Assembly: GCF_029759835.1 (NCBI RefSeq)
Contig: NZ_JAJJND010000008.1
Location: 1 to 45,648 of the forward strand
DNA from: Acetobacter sp. AN02
GTDB lineage: Bacteria > Pseudomonadota > Alphaproteobacteria > Acetobacterales > Acetobacteraceae
DNA length: 45,648 nt
Direction: 5' to 3'
Both the position numbers and the translations under genes were made by a program. The notes below the pieces were generated by a model that saw only the letters and a program-made list of their open reading frames with translations, had not been told where the DNA came from and searched no databases. Shown piece after piece: positions 3,730-34,262 of this stretch (position 1 is the stretch's first letter; each line of letters starts with the position of its first letter).

Positions 3730-4025
3730 GATTCTGCTCCTGCAGAGAGTGAGGAATGAGGATGCAGGGTGATCCCGGGAGGCTTACCGTGGCGTTAATA
3801 CCCGGGTGACGAATTGAAACGATTTGTATGAGACGTCAGGGCAGACAGGATTTCCGGAGGAGGTAAACCGGGAATTAATATTTCTCGGGGATTGTGCCGG
3901 TCGTTAACCGTCTGAATTTCCGCTGGCCGGGGCGGGTGGAGACAGCGAGATCAGCCGCACAAAGGCCATGAAAAGGCTCTTTTACTGCGGCAGCTCCGAG
4001 AGCCTGCAAACCGGAGCGGCGTGTC
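3730..4025. other. intergenic region, probable divergent promoters
   Basis: This stretch separates the minus-strand Ser/Thr gene from the plus-strand 65-residue gene. It holds TACCCGGG at about 3797 and GGAGGAGG at 3856-3863. The latter resembles a strong Shine-Dalgarno but is followed only by very short reading frames (TTG or GTG starts giving 7 to 25 codons). No RNA gene was recognised. Confidence 0.4.
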
Positions 4026-4223
4026 ATGTCTGAATCGTATGTTATTGAAGTGGATGGAATATTTCTGGGGACCGCCCTGTGCGTGCCGCAGGAAAACGGG
4101 AGAGTCCGGTTCTATGCCACGCATGAGAGTGTGAGAGATCTGCATCTGCAGGAGATGGCGCATCTACCTGAGCTGCGCCGGCAGGTTGCGGTCCTGTCCC
4201 GTCGCGGGATGTGCGTGGCCTGA
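4026..4223 (+). CDS. small conserved-looking hypothetical protein
   Basis: This 65-residue protein starts MSESYVIEVDGIFLGTALCV and continues RVRFYATHESVRDLHLQEM with a basic C-terminus. The pattern (hydrophobic strand, VDG-F-G, RFYAT-ESVR) looks like a compact folded domain and resembles small hypothetical proteins I associate with Acetobacteraceae, but I cannot name a family. GGAG (4013-4016) lies nine bases before the ATG. A clear terminator follows 18 bases after the stop, which supports it being a real single-gene unit. Confidence 0.6.
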   Translation: MSESYVIEVDGIFLGTALCVPQENGRVRFYATHESVRDLHLQEMAHLPELRRQVAVLSRRGMCVA

Positions 4224-28189: not shown

Positions 28190-28552
28190 TCACGGCGAAG
28201 TGTTCTTTTCAGGGCGTGCGATTTTTTTCGCAAGCCCCTCCAGGGCGGAGCTGCTTCCCCGGGTGGCAAGAAGTTCCGCCTCGCGATAGAGTCTCACGAT
28301 TGTGTGACCTGTTTCGGTGAGGAATGCGCCGCCGCCGCCGCCGGGGCGTGTGCCGACCAGCGGTTCGGAGAAGAGCGCGTTGACGGATTCCACGAGGAGC
28401 CAGGCGCGGCGGTAGGACATGCCCATGGCGCGGCCTGCGGCGGAGATGGAGCCGGTTGCGTCGATATGTTCGAGCAGGATGATCTTTCCGTGGCCGAGGG
28501 CCGGGCGTCCGTCGATATCGATTCTGAGGGTGAGGCGCAGTGAGTCCGCCAT
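28190..28552 (-). CDS. ModE-type winged-helix DNA-binding protein (no molybdate domain)
   Basis: This 120-residue protein matches the N-terminal DNA-binding half of ModE: LLEHIDATGSISAAGRAMGM then SYRRAWLLVESVNALFSEPL, and GGGGGAFLTETGHTIVRLYR. The C-terminal Mop/TOBE molybdate-binding domains of full ModE are missing, so it either does not sense molybdate directly or uses a partner. GGGAGAG precedes ATG 28552. It is divergent from a run of molybdenum genes (28621-33452), and an inverted repeat lies between, so it is the likely local regulator. Confidence 0.85.
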   Translation of the reverse strand: MADSLRLTLRIDIDGRPALGHGKIILLEHIDATGSISAAGRAMGMSYRRAWLLVESVNALFSEPLVGTRPGGGGGAFLTETGHTIVRLYREAELLATRGSSSALEGLAKKIARPEKNTSP

Positions 28553-29236: not shown

Positions 29237-29686
29237 ATGCTTTTTGAATTCGAGAGCGATTTCGCCGGGTCTTTGCGGTGTATTCCCATGATCGTGCGCC
29301 AGAAGCTCGATCTTGCCGGGATAAAGCTGAGCCTACGGCAGTGGAGCCGGTTTTCCCGCGAGGACAGGGGGCGTCTTGCGGAGTTTCCCTGTGAGACGGC
29401 GGCGGATGTGGCGGTCTGTCGCTCTGTGATTCTGGGGCTGATTGAGTCGTGCTGCGATGAGCCTGCGGTTTTTCTCGGCCCGCAGGAGTATGATGTATGG
29501 CAGCGCGGGGACCGGATGCCTGAGGCTGTTGAGAGTCAGGCAGCTGCGGATGGTGTGGCGCCCCCTGCGGCGGAGGTGTGGGCCGATCTCAGTCCGCTGC
29601 AGCGTTTTGCGCTGATCAAGCTTGCGCGGTCGAAGCATGAAAATGAGAATTTTGTTCCGGCAATGAAGGAATTCGGAATTCTTTAA
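29237..29686 (+). CDS. nitrate reductase-associated protein, NarM-like
   Basis: This 149-residue protein starts MLFEFESDFAGSLRCIPMIV and continues RQKLDLAGIKLSLRQW, with PCETAADVAVCRSVI in the middle and LSPLQRFALIKLARSKHEN near the end. This matches the pattern I know for the nitrate-reductase-associated family (NarM), which cyanobacteria need for activity of the molybdoenzyme NarB. No nitrate reductase is in the window; the next gene, 32 bases on, is an FdhF/YdeP-type molybdopterin oxidoreductase. It is most likely a maturation or stability factor for that enzyme. Cys15, Cys52 and Cys61-type residues could be functional. The Shine-Dalgarno is not well placed. Confidence 0.75.
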   Translation: MLFEFESDFAGSLRCIPMIVRQKLDLAGIKLSLRQWSRFSREDRGRLAEFPCETAADVAVCRSVILGLIESCCDEPAVFLGPQEYDVWQRGDRMPEAVESQAAADGVAPPAAEVWADLSPLQRFALIKLARSKHENENFVPAMKEFGIL

Positions 29687-29718
29687 TCCGGATGTTTCTG
29701 TCCGGGGAGGAGAGGGCA

Positions 29719-32028
29719 ATGAGCAAGGAAAAAGACGCAGAATTCAAACCCTATCACCATCCTGCCGGAGGCTGGGGTGCTGCGGGTGCGACGGCGAAGG
29801 TTCTGATGGAGCAGAGCGTGCTTGTGAAAGGCTCGCGCGGGCTTCTGGCGATGAATCAGCCGGGCGGCTTCAAATGTCCGAGCTGTGCCTTTCCCGATCC
29901 GGACCACAGAAAGAAGCTGGAATTCTGTGAGAACGGAGCAAAGGCCTTGGCGCATGAGGCGACGAAGGCCCGTGTGACCCGTGCGTTCTTTGAGAAATAC
30001 ACTGTTTCCGAGCTTATGGAGCAGAGCGACTACTGGCTTGAGATGCAGGGGCGTCTGACGGAGCCGATGCGCTATGATCCGGCGACCGACCGCTATGTGC
30101 CTGTGTCGTGGGATGACGCGTTTGCGCTGATCGGGCGACATCTGCAGGCGCTGGACAGCCCGCATGAGGCGGAGTTCTACACGTCGGGGCGGACCGCGAA
30201 CGAGACGGCGTTTCTCTATTCGATTTTTGTCCGTGAGTTCGGGACGAATAATTTTCCTGACTGCTCGAACATGTGCCATGAGCCGACCAGCCGTGGCCTT
30301 CCGGCCTCGATCGGGATCGGCAAGGGCACGATCGTCATGGCTGATTTCGATCATGCCGAGGCGATTTTCGTGGTCGGACAGAATACCGGGACGAATTCTC
30401 CGCGTATGATGACCAATCTGGTCGAGGCGAGGAAGCGCGGTGTTCCGATCGTGCTGATCAATCCGATGCCCGAGCGTGCGCTGATCCGCTTTACCGAGCC
30501 GCAGGACGTCGTGAAGATGGCGACCTTCGGGTCCACGCCGATTTCCAGCGAGTTCGTTCACGTCCGGATCGGCGGCGATCTGGCGGTGTTCAAGGGCATG
30601 ATGCGGGTTCTGTTTGAGGCCGATGCGCGGGGGGAGGACGTTCTCGACAAGGCGTTTATCGGTGAGCACACGGTCGGGCTTGAGGCGCTGCGTGCGGATG
30701 TCATGAGCTGTTCCTGGGACGATATCACCCGGATGGCGGGCGTGTCCGAGGAGCAGATCCGCCGCGTGGCGGAAATTTACATGAAATCCTCCGCGACGGT
30801 GATCTGCTACGGCATGGGCATCACCCAGCATCAGCAGGGGTCCCGCCTGATCCAGCAGATTGCTAACCTGCTTCTCCTGCGTGGTAATTTCGGGAAACCC
30901 GGAGCGGGGATTGCACCGATCCGCGGTCATTCGAATGTCCAGGGAGACCGGACGGTCGGCATCGATGAGAAGCCGACGCAGGACTATCTGGACCGGGTGC
31001 GCGATGTGTTCGGCTTCGAGCCGCCGCGTGAGCACGGGCATGATGTCGTGGCCTCCCTTGAGGCGATGGAAGCGGGGACGGCGAAGGTCTTTATCGGGCT
31101 GGGTGGCAATTTCGTCCGGGCGGTTCCGGATACGGAGCGGTCCTATGCCGCGATGGCACGGCTGAATCTGACGGTCGGGATCGCGACGAAGCTCAACCGC
31201 GGCCATCTGGTTCACGGGAGGGAGGCGCTGCTGCTTCCGGTTGTCGCGCGGTCGGAGATCATCCGCACCTCTGCGGGTGAGCAGTTCGTGACGATCGAGG
31301 ATGCGATGTCGAACGTGACGGCGTCGCGCGGCGTGTTTGAGCCCGTGTCGCAGGATGTTCTTCCGGAGACCGAGATCGTCTGCCGGATGGCGATGGCGAC
31401 GCTGCCGGGCTCTTCGACGGCGTGGGCGGATTATATGGCCGATTACACGCTGATCCGCGACAGGATCGGTCAGGTCTATCCGGCGATCTATGCGGATTTC
31501 TCGGAGCGTATCCGGGATCCGCATGGATTCCATCTGGATATTCCGCCGCGCCGGCGTGTGTGGAAGACGCAGACCGGCAAGGCGAATTTCCTGGTTTTCC
31601 CGGGTCTTGAGGCGGATGTTCCGGTTGATGATCCCGCGATGCTGCGTCTGGCGACGATCCGCTCGCATGATCAGTACAACACCACGATCTACAGTAACAG
31701 CGACCGCTATCGCGGTGTGTATAACACCCGGCTGGTTGTGTTCATGAACCGTGACGACATGAAGGATCGCGGGCTGGAGAACGGCTCGGTGATCGGCCTG
31801 GAGACATACAGCGATGACGGATATCACCGTTATGTCGATGGTCTGACGGTGATTGACTATCCGATGTCCCGGGGTGCGATCGCGGGATATTATCCGGAGC
31901 TCAATCCCCTGCTGCCGCTGGGATATTTTGATGAGATCAGCGGCACCCCGGCGGCGAAATCGATCCCGGTGAAGGTGGTGCCCAGCACTGCCGGTGCCGT
32001 TCCGATGCGGTTTGAGGGTCAGGGCTGA
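29719..32028 (+). CDS. FdhF/YdeP-type molybdopterin oxidoreductase (formate dehydrogenase-like alpha subunit)
   Basis: The protein has 769 residues. ATG 29719 follows GGGGAGGAGA, and the frame is open upstream to 29692. The N-terminal Cys cluster KCPSCAFPDPDHRKKLEFC is followed by ENGAKA, the YdeP/Fdhalpha-like signature with a reduced cluster ligand set. The likely molybdenum ligand is Cys in DCSNMCHEPTSRGLPASIG. Later come FVVGQNTGTNSPRMM, GMGITQHQQGSRLIQQ and RGHSNVQGDRTVGI (bis-MGD binding). There is no signal peptide, so it is cytoplasmic. The partner electron-transfer subunit is not encoded here. Formate is the usual guess for this family, but YdeP members are not well characterised. 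Confidence 0.88.
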   Translation: MSKEKDAEFKPYHHPAGGWGAAGATAKVLMEQSVLVKGSRGLLAMNQPGGFKCPSCAFPDPDHRKKLEFCENGAKALAHEATKARVTRAFFEKYTVSELMEQSDYWLEMQGRLTEPMRYDPATDRYVPVSWDDAFALIGRHLQALDSPHEAEFYTSGRTANETAFLYSIFVREFGTNNFPDCSNMCHEPTSRGLPASIGIGKGTIVMADFDHAEAIFVVGQNTGTNSPRMMTNLVEARKRGVPIVLINPMPERALIRFTEPQDVVKMATFGSTPISSEFVHVRIGGDLAVFKGMMRVLFEADARGEDVLDKAFIGEHTVGLEALRADVMSCSWDDITRMAGVSEEQIRRVAEIYMKSSATVICYGMGITQHQQGSRLIQQIANLLLLRGNFGKPGAGIAPIRGHSNVQGDRTVGIDEKPTQDYLDRVRDVFGFEPPREHGHDVVASLEAMEAGTAKVFIGLGGNFVRAVPDTERSYAAMARLNLTVGIATKLNRGHLVHGREALLLPVVARSEIIRTSAGEQFVTIEDAMSNVTASRGVFEPVSQDVLPETEIVCRMAMATLPGSSTAWADYMADYTLIRDRIGQVYPAIYADFSERIRDPHGFHLDIPPRRRVWKTQTGKANFLVFPGLEADVPVDDPAMLRLATIRSHDQYNTTIYSNSDRYRGVYNTRLVVFMNRDDMKDRGLENGSVIGLETYSDDGYHRYVDGLTVIDYPMSRGAIAGYYPELNPLLPLGYFDEISGTPAAKSIPVKVVPSTAGAVPMRFEGQG

Positions 32029-32053
32029 GGCCTGCTCTGGTGGTTCCGCTCCG

Positions 32054-32644
32054 GTGATTCCGCTCTGGGGGCTGGTTCTGGCCGGGGGAGCAAGCCGCCG
32101 GATGGGGCAGGATAAGGCGGCGCTGGTCTATGGCGGGCGTCCGCAGCTTGCCCGGGCGTTCGGGCTTGTCTCCCCGCGGACGGAGCGGAGCTTCGTCTCG
32201 CTCCGTCCGGATCAGGGGGATGACCCCCTGCGGTCCGGCTGGCCCGGGATTACGGATATGACGGGGGCAGACGGACCGGCTGCCGGGATTCTTGCGGCTC
32301 ATGATGCATACCCGGATGTGGCCTGGCTGGTGCTGGCCTGTGATCTGCCTTTTCTGGATGAAGACTCTCTGGATGCGCTGATCGGTGCAAGGGCTGCGGG
32401 GTGCTCTGCCATTGCATTCCGGAGCGAGCATGACGGGGTGCCGGAGCCGCTCTGCACGATATGGGAGCCTGAGGCTCTGGCGCGTCTGCGGCTTCAGATG
32501 GCCGGAGGCGGCGGGAGTCTGCGCCGGGTTCTTGCGGCGGCGGATGTCTGTGTGCTGTCGCCGCGCACGCCGGGGGCTCTGGATAATATCAATACGCCAG
32601 AGGAACGCGCAGAGGCTGTGATGCGCCTTGCGGACGGAGGCTGA
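32054..32644 (+). CDS. mobA: molybdenum cofactor guanylyltransferase
   Basis: This protein of about 196 residues attaches GMP to molybdopterin to form MGD, needed by the upstream oxidoreductase. It shows LVLAGGASRRMGQDKAAL (GTP binding), TGADGPAAGILAA, VLACDLPFLDED and ends with DNINTPEE, all MobA hallmarks. The frame is open from ATG 31994, inside the previous gene. GTG 32054 gives the usual N-terminus (VIPLWGLVLAGG) and is preferred, although the Shine-Dalgarno is weak either way. It is followed by fdhD with a 4-base gap. Confidence 0.9.
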   Translation: MIPLWGLVLAGGASRRMGQDKAALVYGGRPQLARAFGLVSPRTERSFVSLRPDQGDDPLRSGWPGITDMTGADGPAAGILAAHDAYPDVAWLVLACDLPFLDEDSLDALIGARAAGCSAIAFRSEHDGVPEPLCTIWEPEALARLRLQMAGGGGSLRRVLAAADVCVLSPRTPGALDNINTPEERAEAVMRLADGG

Positions 32645-32648
32645 GCGG

Positions 32649-33452
32649 ATGACGGCGCTGTTTTATGGCCTGGATGTCGTGCCGCTTGGATCCCCGGATG
32701 AGGGGACTGTTCTGAATGTTGCGGATGAGGTTCCGGTTCGCCTGAGATTCAATGGAATCTTTCCATATGGCACCATGATGATGAGCCCTGATCAGGTCGA
32801 GGATTTTGCGTATGGCTTCTGCCTGACGGAGGGAATTGCCGGGAGCGCGGAGGATATCCGCTCGGTTGTTGTCACGCAGTTGCAGGATGGCTGTGATCTG
32901 GATGTGACGGTGTCCGGGGCATGTCTGGCGGCCCTGCTGCGGCGTGCTCCGCGGGCACAGACGGGGCATACGGGATGCGGGATCTGCGGGACGGATGAGA
33001 TTCCTGCCGTGGAGACCCCGGATATTCCGGTTTTGCCCCGGGGCGACGGGATTACCGTGGAGGCGATCCGGCGGGGGCTGAGGGATCTTGAATCCCGGCA
33101 GGTTTTGAATGCCGCGACCAGGATGGTTCATGCGGCGGCGTGGGCGGACCGGGAGGGGCGTATTGAGCTGATCAGGGAGGATGTCGGCCGGCATAATGCG
33201 CTGGACAAGCTGATCGGTGCGCGGATTCGTGCGGGGCAGACCGGTTCGGAGGGATTCTGTCTTCTCACCAGCCGGTATTCATACGAGATGGTTTTAAAGA
33301 CCCTGCGGGCCGGGATGGCAGTTGTCGTGGCGGTTTCGGCCCCGACATATCGGGCTTTCCGCCTTGCGGAACGCGGTGGTCAGACGCTGATCGCCATCGC
33401 GCGTCGTGACCGGCAGTTTCTGTTCTGCGGCGGCGATCGTATTTCCGGCTGA
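32649..33452 (+). CDS. fdhD: formate dehydrogenase accessory sulfurtransferase
   Basis: This 267-residue FdhD transfers sulfur from a cysteine desulfurase to the MGD cofactor of formate dehydrogenases. The catalytic CxxC is visible in GHTGCGICGTDE (about residue 117), with REDVGRHNALDKLIG and LLTSRYSYEMVLKTL as family signatures. ATG 32649 follows GGAGGCTGAGCGG and matches the start better than the upstream frame (32628). The presence of fdhD immediately after the oxidoreductase and mobA is the best evidence that the oxidoreductase is FDH-like. Confidence 0.94.
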   Translation: MTALFYGLDVVPLGSPDEGTVLNVADEVPVRLRFNGIFPYGTMMMSPDQVEDFAYGFCLTEGIAGSAEDIRSVVVTQLQDGCDLDVTVSGACLAALLRRAPRAQTGHTGCGICGTDEIPAVETPDIPVLPRGDGITVEAIRRGLRDLESRQVLNAATRMVHAAAWADREGRIELIREDVGRHNALDKLIGARIRAGQTGSEGFCLLTSRYSYEMVLKTLRAGMAVVVAVSAPTYRAFRLAERGGQTLIAIARRDRQFLFCGGDRISG

Positions 33453-33470: not shown

Positions 33471-34262
33471 TCAGCGCGGATTACGGCGGGTTGAGGGGCG
33501 GCGGTTTGTCAGTCCGGAAAGCGGAAGGGCCGGGGAGAGAGCCTGCCCGCATCCTTCCTGGCATTTATGCTCCGTAAGGAATGCCAGTGTCTGGCGGGAA
33601 TCAATGCCCTCCGCGCGGGTTTTCAGCCCCAGATCGTGCGCAATACGCAGGAGGGCTGCGGCCAGCGGATGATCCGAGTGAATGTCGCCCGGATCCGTGA
33701 CGAAGAGATGCCGGTCGAGCTTGATCGTGCTGATCAGCCCCATAAAGGCGAGATCCCGCAGCAGGGTGAGGCTTGTCTGAGTATGGCCGAGGCCGGTCAT
33801 GACCACGCCCGCGCCTGCGTCTCTCAGTCCGGAGAGGGTGTAGATCATGTTTTCGGTAATGTTCAGCAGGGTTGATTCCGGGAATTCGATTTCCACGGAG
33901 GCTGCCGCGGTTCCGGTGTCCAGCAGGGTCTGCCGGAGGCGGCTGAGGAATTCGTCTTCCGTCTGGTCGCTGTTTTCATAAGGGATGGCCGTGCATCCGG
34001 GCAGGCGGGTTCCGGTTGCCGTTGCGGCGCAGACGCGTGAGAGCAGGTCTTCCCGCGCCCTGCCCTTCTGCCTGCGGCGGGCGGAGCGGAAGGGCATGAG
34101 AGCTGCCGTGGGGAGTATGTCTATGCCTGTGCGCTGCCCGTTGTGCAGATCATAGCGGATGATGACTTCCGGATTTTCGTCCGTGTGGTCAGGCTGGTGA
34201 GCAGCCATGCTCCGCGAATGGCCGGCATGAGGCCGTGTGAAGGCTGCAACGGTGTCGGGCAA
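33471..34262 (-). CDS. degenerate EAL-domain protein
   Basis: This 263-residue protein aligns by eye to the EAL fold. Retained features are GIDILP (where EAL should be), SVEIEFPEST (for the LELEITES segment), STIKLDRHLF (for LKIDRSF), and TRAEGIDSRQTLAFL (for the VAEGVET segment), then GCGQALSPALPLSGL. The EAL motif itself and the DDFG metal site (here TGLGHTQ) are lost, so c-di-GMP hydrolysis is unlikely; it may be a c-di-GMP receptor or protein-interaction domain. The start is uncertain: TTG 34262 has GAGAG nine bases upstream, while ATG 34208 has its GGAG too close. It is convergent with fdhD. Confidence 0.75.
   Translation of the reverse strand: MPDTVAAFTRPHAGHSRSMAAHQPDHTDENPEVIIRYDLHNGQRTGIDILPTAALMPFRSARRRQKGRAREDLLSRVCAATATGTRLPGCTAIPYENSDQTEDEFLSRLRQTLLDTGTAAASVEIEFPESTLLNITENMIYTLSGLRDAGAGVVMTGLGHTQTSLTLLRDLAFMGLISTIKLDRHLFVTDPGDIHSDHPLAAALLRIAHDLGLKTRAEGIDSRQTLAFLTEHKCQEGCGQALSPALPLSGLTNRRPSTRRNPR

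Follow-up and report, generated by a model that had tools for sequence, protein, structure and literature searches.

A four-gene cassette of Acetobacter sp. AN02 pairs a NarM-like protein with a probable formate dehydrogenase

The DNA analysed here is a contig of 45,648 nucleotides from Acetobacter sp. AN02 (NZ_JAJJND010000008.1; the window), in which four genes form a cassette encoding a NarM-like protein, an oxidoreductase that is probably a formate dehydrogenase (FDH), a MobA-like protein and FdhD (Table 1). All four are on the same strand and nearly gapless, and the unit spans 4.2 kb, shorter than the five kilobases given in a first-pass annotation. That annotation had assigned the first protein to the NarM family and placed its gene 32 bases ahead of an FdhF/YdeP-type enzyme, not a nitrate reductase, with mobA and fdhD following. 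The profile search that it had proposed confirmed the assignment. The protein belongs to the NarM family, matching PF09655 over positions 1–144 of 144 (E 9.4e-49, 166 bits, cut-off 25) and TIGR02664, ‘nitrate reductase maturation protein NarM’, with 157.8 bits (cut-off 110). The enzyme scored 914.8 bits against TIGR01701 (cut-off 582); its scores against the E. coli YdeP equivalog PRK09939 (826.9) and the canonical FDH alpha model TIGR01591 (235 bits) were under the cut-offs of 1473 and 666, and a Pfam profile search found no PF04879 match in it. The MobA-like protein scored 106 bits against PF12804 (cut-off 27) and 85 bits against TIGR02665, under the cut-off of 151.85, and FdhD scored 171.7 bits against TIGR00129 (cut-off 140.9). 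The 32-base gap holds if the ATG at 29719 is taken as the start codon of the enzyme, which agrees with the start of a homologue at locus L064 (MSKEK...); measured from the longest open reading frame (ORF) the gap is 5 bases.

Table 1. Genes of the cassette and a nearby regulator gene in the window
Feature	Position	Strand	Basis
NarM-like protein (PF09655/TIGR02664), 149 amino acids (aa)	29237..29686	+	profile scores
FdhF/YdeP-type molybdopterin oxidoreductase (TIGR01701), probable formate dehydrogenase	29719..32028 (longest ORF from 29692)	+	profile, alignment
MobA-like molybdenum cofactor guanylyltransferase	31994..32644	+	PF12804; TIGR02665 below cut-off
FdhD, formate dehydrogenase accessory sulfurtransferase	32628..33452	+	PF02634 203 bits, TIGR00129
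ModE-like single-domain regulator	28190..28552	-	TIGR00637 75.6 bits, under 98.5 cut-off

The host, an acetic acid bacterium (Acetobacteraceae), has a genome of 2.58 Mb that is 99.98% complete. This genome contained one PF09655 match and one FdhD match, both those of the cassette, and a PF00384 search at E 1e-5 yielded two matches, the cassette enzyme and, as the only other one, NuoG (TIGR01973, 721 bits). Because this search found no nitrate-reductase client in the genome, the cassette enzyme is the most plausible client of both the NarM-like protein and FdhD. The cassette is patchily distributed, as neither a NarM match nor an enzyme match at E 1e-80 was obtained in five further genomes of the same genus.

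Maeda and Omata reportedly found in 2004 that NarM is needed for the activity of Synechococcus NarB. Cyanobacterial NarM (PF09655, TIGR02664) and the window protein are members of the same family over their full length, the family profile matched Synechococcus elongatus as a positive control, and both proteins are encoded beside an enzyme of the bis(molybdopterin guanine dinucleotide) (bis-MGD) type. The cassette differs from the cyanobacterial arrangement in that the neighbour is an FdhF/YdeP enzyme accompanied by fdhD, in a genome in which no nitrate reductase was found. Excerpts of published work describe a cyanobacterial nitrate-reductase-associated protein grouped with nitrate reductase and cofactor genes (PMC5862535), the use of narM for nitrate assimilation (PMC13366656), NarM as the name of an archaeal membrane anchor (PMC4683180), and ydeP as uncharacterised in the context of chlorate reduction (PMC13094775). 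Among the matches listed in the open full-text literature, which leaves most subscription papers outside, no paper linked the NarM family to a formate dehydrogenase.

We surveyed the neighbours of the best 80 of 91 NarM relatives from named bacterial genomes, with 7 kb fetched on each side. A TIGR01701-like enzyme was near NarM at 54 of the 80 loci (at one of them, L116, in three pieces), an assimilatory nitrate-reductase-like enzyme at 21, neither at five and both at none. Because 14 of the 15 sequences from which the search patterns were made came from acetic acid bacteria, the 54:21 ratio favours loci of the window’s kind; cyanobacteria were hardly sampled. Four of the five loci with neither enzyme were near contig edges and the fifth was on a cyanobacterial contig (L140). 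Thus, the neighbour is not consistently a nitrate reductase, the outcome that the first-pass annotation had named as counting against its idea. The fdhD gene was nearby at 44 of the 54 FDH-side loci and at none of the 21 nitrate-reductase-side loci (p 2e-11; p values of the survey and of the co-occurrence counts below ignore kinship). The enzyme gene in three pieces is that of Asaia astilbis (L116 3861-6165) and reflects either decay or a sequencing error.

The two types of NarM client are chemically distinct. An alignment was made of 22 nitrate-reductase-side enzymes (those of the 21 loci and of L178) and seven FDH-side enzymes. Cys-Met was present at the aligned metal ligand in all 22 of the former, and CxYCGVGC, the C-x2-C-x3-C start of a four-Cys motif, in 21, the other sequence being cut off there. 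The seven FDH-side enzymes contained Cys-His and a three-Cys motif, both of which were invariant in 15 sequences (the window’s and 14 of the 54). With residues numbered from the longest ORF, the active-site pair of the window enzyme is Cys195-His196 and the cluster residues are Cys62, 65 and 79; the three cysteines occupy the cluster site in all 15 sequences in place of the canonical four-Cys [4Fe-4S] motif. The pair aligned with the Cys-His of the FdhF chain of hydrogen-dependent CO2 reductase (HDCR; 7qv7_S), and Cys-His was also found in the aligned FDH-alpha and FDH-N rows. A reduced cluster, which had been suggested as a shared trait of the clients, is therefore not a common property of them, because the nitrate-reductase side has the start of the four-Cys motif whereas the FDH side has three cysteines.

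The nitrate-reductase label was assigned from Cys-Met, the usual cluster motif, and neighbours or domains. None of the NCBIfam nitrate-reductase equivalog cut-offs was reached by the enzymes scanned (L118, L127, L128 and the split L112), in which TIGR01591 outscored NasC while itself remaining below cut-off. The neighbours and domains seen across the scanned loci, though not at each of the 21, were nitrite reductase, siroheme synthase, ANTAR, NMT1-like and fused flavoprotein reductase. At Komagataeibacter-type loci the nirB label is a partial match at 39–41%, and Pfam gives a NIR_SIR-Rieske protein (L118, L142). The nitrate-reductase and CysJ-like parts that are fused in one protein in L118 are spread over two adjoining ORFs in L112 (7462-11651). 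FDH-linked and nitrate-reductase-linked NarM proteins themselves differed in few columns (three at the thresholds used).

NarM was upstream of the enzyme at 38 loci and downstream at 15, as in the order enzyme-fdhD-NarM of Asaia, the order strings adding one locus with a broken enzyme gene. The NarM-enzyme link thus survives changes of gene order. Relatives of the cassette often add moaA, and cydA was nearby at 27 of the 54 FDH-side loci when a half-length filter was applied (29 of 53 with a looser filter), compared to none of the 21 nitrate-reductase-side loci (p 1e-5). Both additions make it doubtful that the unit is self-contained, as the first-pass annotation had supposed. The commonest cydA arrangement, found at 12 loci, is cydA-cydB-NarM-enzyme-moaA-mobA-fdhD. 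In acetic acid bacteria cydA-cydB directly adjoins the cassette (L064 4358-6811, L062 4354-6945, L060 4352-6944), with DUF2474 annotated beside it in L060 and L062. In Paracoccus and Bosea (L143 8302-10690, L144 7283-9748) the same genes adjoin FdhF/YdeP enzymes that have no NarM. Such neighbourhoods hint that cydAB might serve this enzyme class as an electron outlet through quinol oxidation.

Co-occurrence was examined in 249 Acetobacteraceae genomes, in which the enzyme was counted as present at a match of E 1e-80. NarM was found in 25 genomes, the TIGR01701-like enzyme in 79 and both in 19 (Fisher p 2e-6). By hand count, NarM was present in 10 of the 11 genomes whose best enzyme was at least 80% identical to the window’s, in 7 of the 10 at 70–79% and in 2 of the 58 below. 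The pairing is therefore a trait of one subgroup of the enzyme, with scattered cases elsewhere.

Taken with the gene content of the host, we consider it probable that the locus is a formate dehydrogenase cassette in which the NarM-like protein is the dedicated maturation chaperone of its enzyme. In this scheme the FdhF/YdeP-type enzyme would oxidise formate, the substrate suggested by homologues in Methylobacterium and Pseudomonas putida, at a sulfido-bis-MGD molybdenum centre; MobA would complete the cofactor, and FdhD would sulfurate it, supplying the sulfido ligand. The NarM-like protein would act as a cytoplasmic chaperone, binding the apo-enzyme for bis-MGD insertion as is thought for NarM acting on NarB; for the window protein, the anatomy of the cassette points to such binding and insertion. 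For the family, our best reading is that each NarM-like protein may mature a specific client, and that these clients are cytoplasmic bis-MGD enzymes which include both formate dehydrogenases and nitrate reductases. The first-pass annotation had gone further, to a general maturation factor for such enzymes. A client range wider than NarB fits the data best, but ‘general’ is too strong for a protein missing from so many genomes that have the enzyme (see below).

Phylogenies were used to follow the pairing. In a NarM tree of 98 rows the client labels were clustered, with 12 changes compared to 33.6 in shuffles. A 38-row tree of 149 columns, its rows hand-chosen after the larger tree, gave three client changes, and the approximately unbiased (AU) test rejected a single FDH clade (p 0.0146), mainly through L115. 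This locus has the same four gene types in another order, with fdhD divergent, and its enzyme is 42–44% identical to the window’s. NarM-linked enzymes also occupied separated places in a 68-row tree of TIGR01701 enzymes, with 8 changes compared to 20.6 in shuffles; the 8 include one spurious label, L031_NarM_1, which marks an additional enzyme close to a cassette on a plasmid and no independent joining. K. xylinus K2G30 has one NarM copy beside an FDH (L082) and one beside a nitrate reductase (L124). Second NarM copies in K. rhaeticus, K. oboediens and A. tropicalis are near contig edges and group with nitrate-reductase-linked copies. Given that the link survives changes of order and that a single FDH clade is rejected in the NarM tree, mainly through one locus, NarM clients were probably swapped in evolution. 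A stronger proposal is that NarM-like proteins form a distinct class of molybdoenzyme maturation factor that has moved between nitrate-reductase and formate-dehydrogenase clients more than once, each such enzyme of a cell having a NarM copy of its own; we hold it tentatively, at slightly less than even weight.

Several observations weigh against these interpretations. The TIGR01701-like enzyme occurred without NarM in 60 of the 79 Acetobacteraceae genomes, among them G289, whose enzyme is 82% identical to the window’s; NarM is therefore not indispensable for this enzyme class. Universality of the pairing is doubtful, as many TIGR01701-like enzymes lack NarM and those of Methylobacterium have another small neighbour. 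Six NarM-bearing genomes gave no enzyme match at E 1e-80, two of them being G333 and G411, described below. The other four (G317, G402, G356 and G256) have NarM beside fdhD; FDH-N is present in all four, FDH-alpha also in G317 and NarG also in G256. In three genomes of another class NarM is divergent from fdhD and TIGR01701-like enzymes are elsewhere. As for the phylogeny, the NarM tree has 149 columns and long branches, a single FDH clade was not rejected without L115 (p 0.093), and support for the placement of the Acidocella row was 81/73 only.

NarJ, TorD and DmsD are small, helical redox-enzyme maturation proteins, each dedicated to one molybdoenzyme. The NarM-like protein falls in a different Pfam family. 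Its AlphaFold2 model was mostly helical (mean predicted local distance difference test score (pLDDT) 89.0, predicted template modelling score 0.84), whereas the model of the FdhF/YdeP enzyme had a pLDDT of 72. Foldseek gave no match to the NarM model at E under 0.001 (best E 2.2), and a sequence search found no solved relative. VIA returned three rows at Z of at least 2, the best with Z 3.1 and a root-mean-square deviation of 3.3 over 55 residues; no NarJ/TorD-type chain was seen among the structure matches, and the VIA rows span mainly residues 1–81. Because of that span, the comparison indicates neither a new nor a different fold. C15 was the sole invariant cysteine in 42 sequences and no paired-Cys cluster motif was found, so the protein is not an obvious electron carrier. 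Of nine rows from loci with fdhD only or with no client, two (L046 and L047) keep this cysteine and seven have lost it.

The cysteine pattern bears on a rival role for the NarM-like protein: instead of a maturation factor it would be a small subunit permanently bound to the enzyme, with a structural function or as a docking site for an electron acceptor. Frequent adjacency of the two genes would suit a subunit, as would the other ORF of about 100 aa found at the 3' end of the enzyme gene in Methylobacterium, Rhizobium and Shinella, which hints that enzymes of this type may take on small partners; an excerpt of PMC12797532 also treats Fdh4B as subunit B of FDH4. However, a lone invariant cysteine does not suggest a redox subunit, the family also occurs beside nitrate reductases that carry their own fused flavoprotein reductase (L118), and many close enzymes have no NarM. 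We therefore regard a permanent subunit as unlikely, though the best placed of the alternatives to a maturation factor.

The known FdhF/YdeP-like systems provide a comparison. Fdh4A of Methylobacterium extorquens is FdhF/YdeP-like, is involved in formate oxidation and is 59% identical to PP_0256 of Pseudomonas putida, which is in one transcript with fdhD; deletion of PP_0256 together with fdhD caused formate sensitivity (excerpts of PMC10308882). PP_0256-FdhD resembles the cassette in combining such an enzyme with fdhD, and differs in that the excerpts of that paper name no NarM-like neighbour (PMC10308882). FDH4 (Fdh4A, Fdh4B) resembles it in combining the enzyme with a small adjoining gene. 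The difference from the FDH4 type is that, in three genomes of one genus (G283, G658 and G666), the ORF of about 100 aa after one enzyme copy is not NarM; the G283 enzyme is 98.9% identical to that of M. bullatum. By its position alone this ORF is a candidate for Fdh4B. We rejected, as far as tested, the identification of Fdh4B with the NarM-like protein, under which the link would date from 2007: PF09655 was found in 1 of 119 genomes of G283’s family, beside a nitrate-reductase-like enzyme, and the protein encoded after the one enzyme copy is a different one, which matched nothing in Pfam. In Methylobacterium-type loci the protein starts at or overlaps the end of the FdhF/YdeP gene (L180 5672-5974, L186 3439-3741, L184 ~3862-4146), and those of L180 and L186 had no Pfam match. 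Relatives were found in plasmids of Rhizobium, Shinella and Aminobacter, several directly beside an FdhF/YdeP enzyme.

A further alternative is that NarM acts with FdhD at the sulfuration step and is specific to formate dehydrogenases of any type, the nitrate-reductase link being a separate branch. Retention of fdhD in 23 of the 25 NarM-bearing Acetobacteraceae genomes speaks for this, as it does for the formate dehydrogenase cassette, and fdhD-NarM pairs without a nearby TIGR01701 enzyme (L046-L049) and divergent pairs (L055-L057) also favour it. Yet fdhD is near none of the nitrate-reductase-linked loci, and several FdhD-only rows of the tree are on long branches, where their placement is unsure. 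We judge this alternative improbable, a little more so than a permanent subunit. The two genomes without fdhD (G333 and G411) have NarM proteins about 33% identical to the window’s and one PF00384 match each, which is NuoG in G333 and in G411 has the same length and start as that of G333. These two genomes, together with NarM genes in stretches without a molybdoenzyme (an Agrobacterium pTi plasmid and the cyanobacterial contig L140), might suggest that NarM is a passive remnant from an operon for nitrate assimilation that travels along with the cassette, but this is very improbable given that no stop occurred in any of 98 NarM rows, that two gene orders and conserved core residues are found, and that separate joinings occurred in L115 and, less surely, in Acidocella.

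NarM matches were also present in 17 plasmid records, seven of which cover at least 80% of the protein; four of the seven were examined. One record each of Kozakia and Komagataeibacter has NarM with the enzyme and fdhD, the Acetobacter ascendens plasmid has NarM with the enzyme and no annotated fdhD, and the Agrobacterium Ti plasmid has neither. On the latter (L059 7971-8447) the NarM-like gene is preceded by genes for diaminopimelate decarboxylase and aspartate dehydrogenase, and the annotation of the stretch shows no molybdoenzyme. On the Kozakia baliensis plasmid (L058 1-14447), IS6 and IS630 transposases border the cassette; G310 has a nearly identical copy on its chromosome-sized contig (L030), L031 being the plasmid-sized one. 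Ten plasmid records of Acetobacter pasteurianus matched over no more than a 57-residue piece of NarM (L061 5978-6148). In the one record examined, ANTAR and substrate-binding genes precede this piece and an IS3 transposase comes after it.

The ModE-like regulator near the cassette, a weak match, could possibly place it under molybdate regulation. ModE was dropped as a conserved partner, as none of the 80 NarM loci had a ModE match; a match does adjoin one NarM-less enzyme (L196). Scans for promoters and terminators found fewer sites than shuffled sequences contained on average. Directly behind fdhD, on the opposite strand, is a gene for an EAL-domain protein (33471-34262) that scores well below full phosphodiesterase models.

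The name of TIGR02664 may credit acetic acid bacteria with a nitrate reduction that they lack. More broadly, maturation by the NarM helper family may not be confined to a single kind of molybdenum enzyme. If NarM-like proteins do mature formate dehydrogenases as well, they would constitute a two-client family whose specificity is testable with natural copies, and the cassette might then be a starting point for producing formate dehydrogenases of this kind in other hosts.

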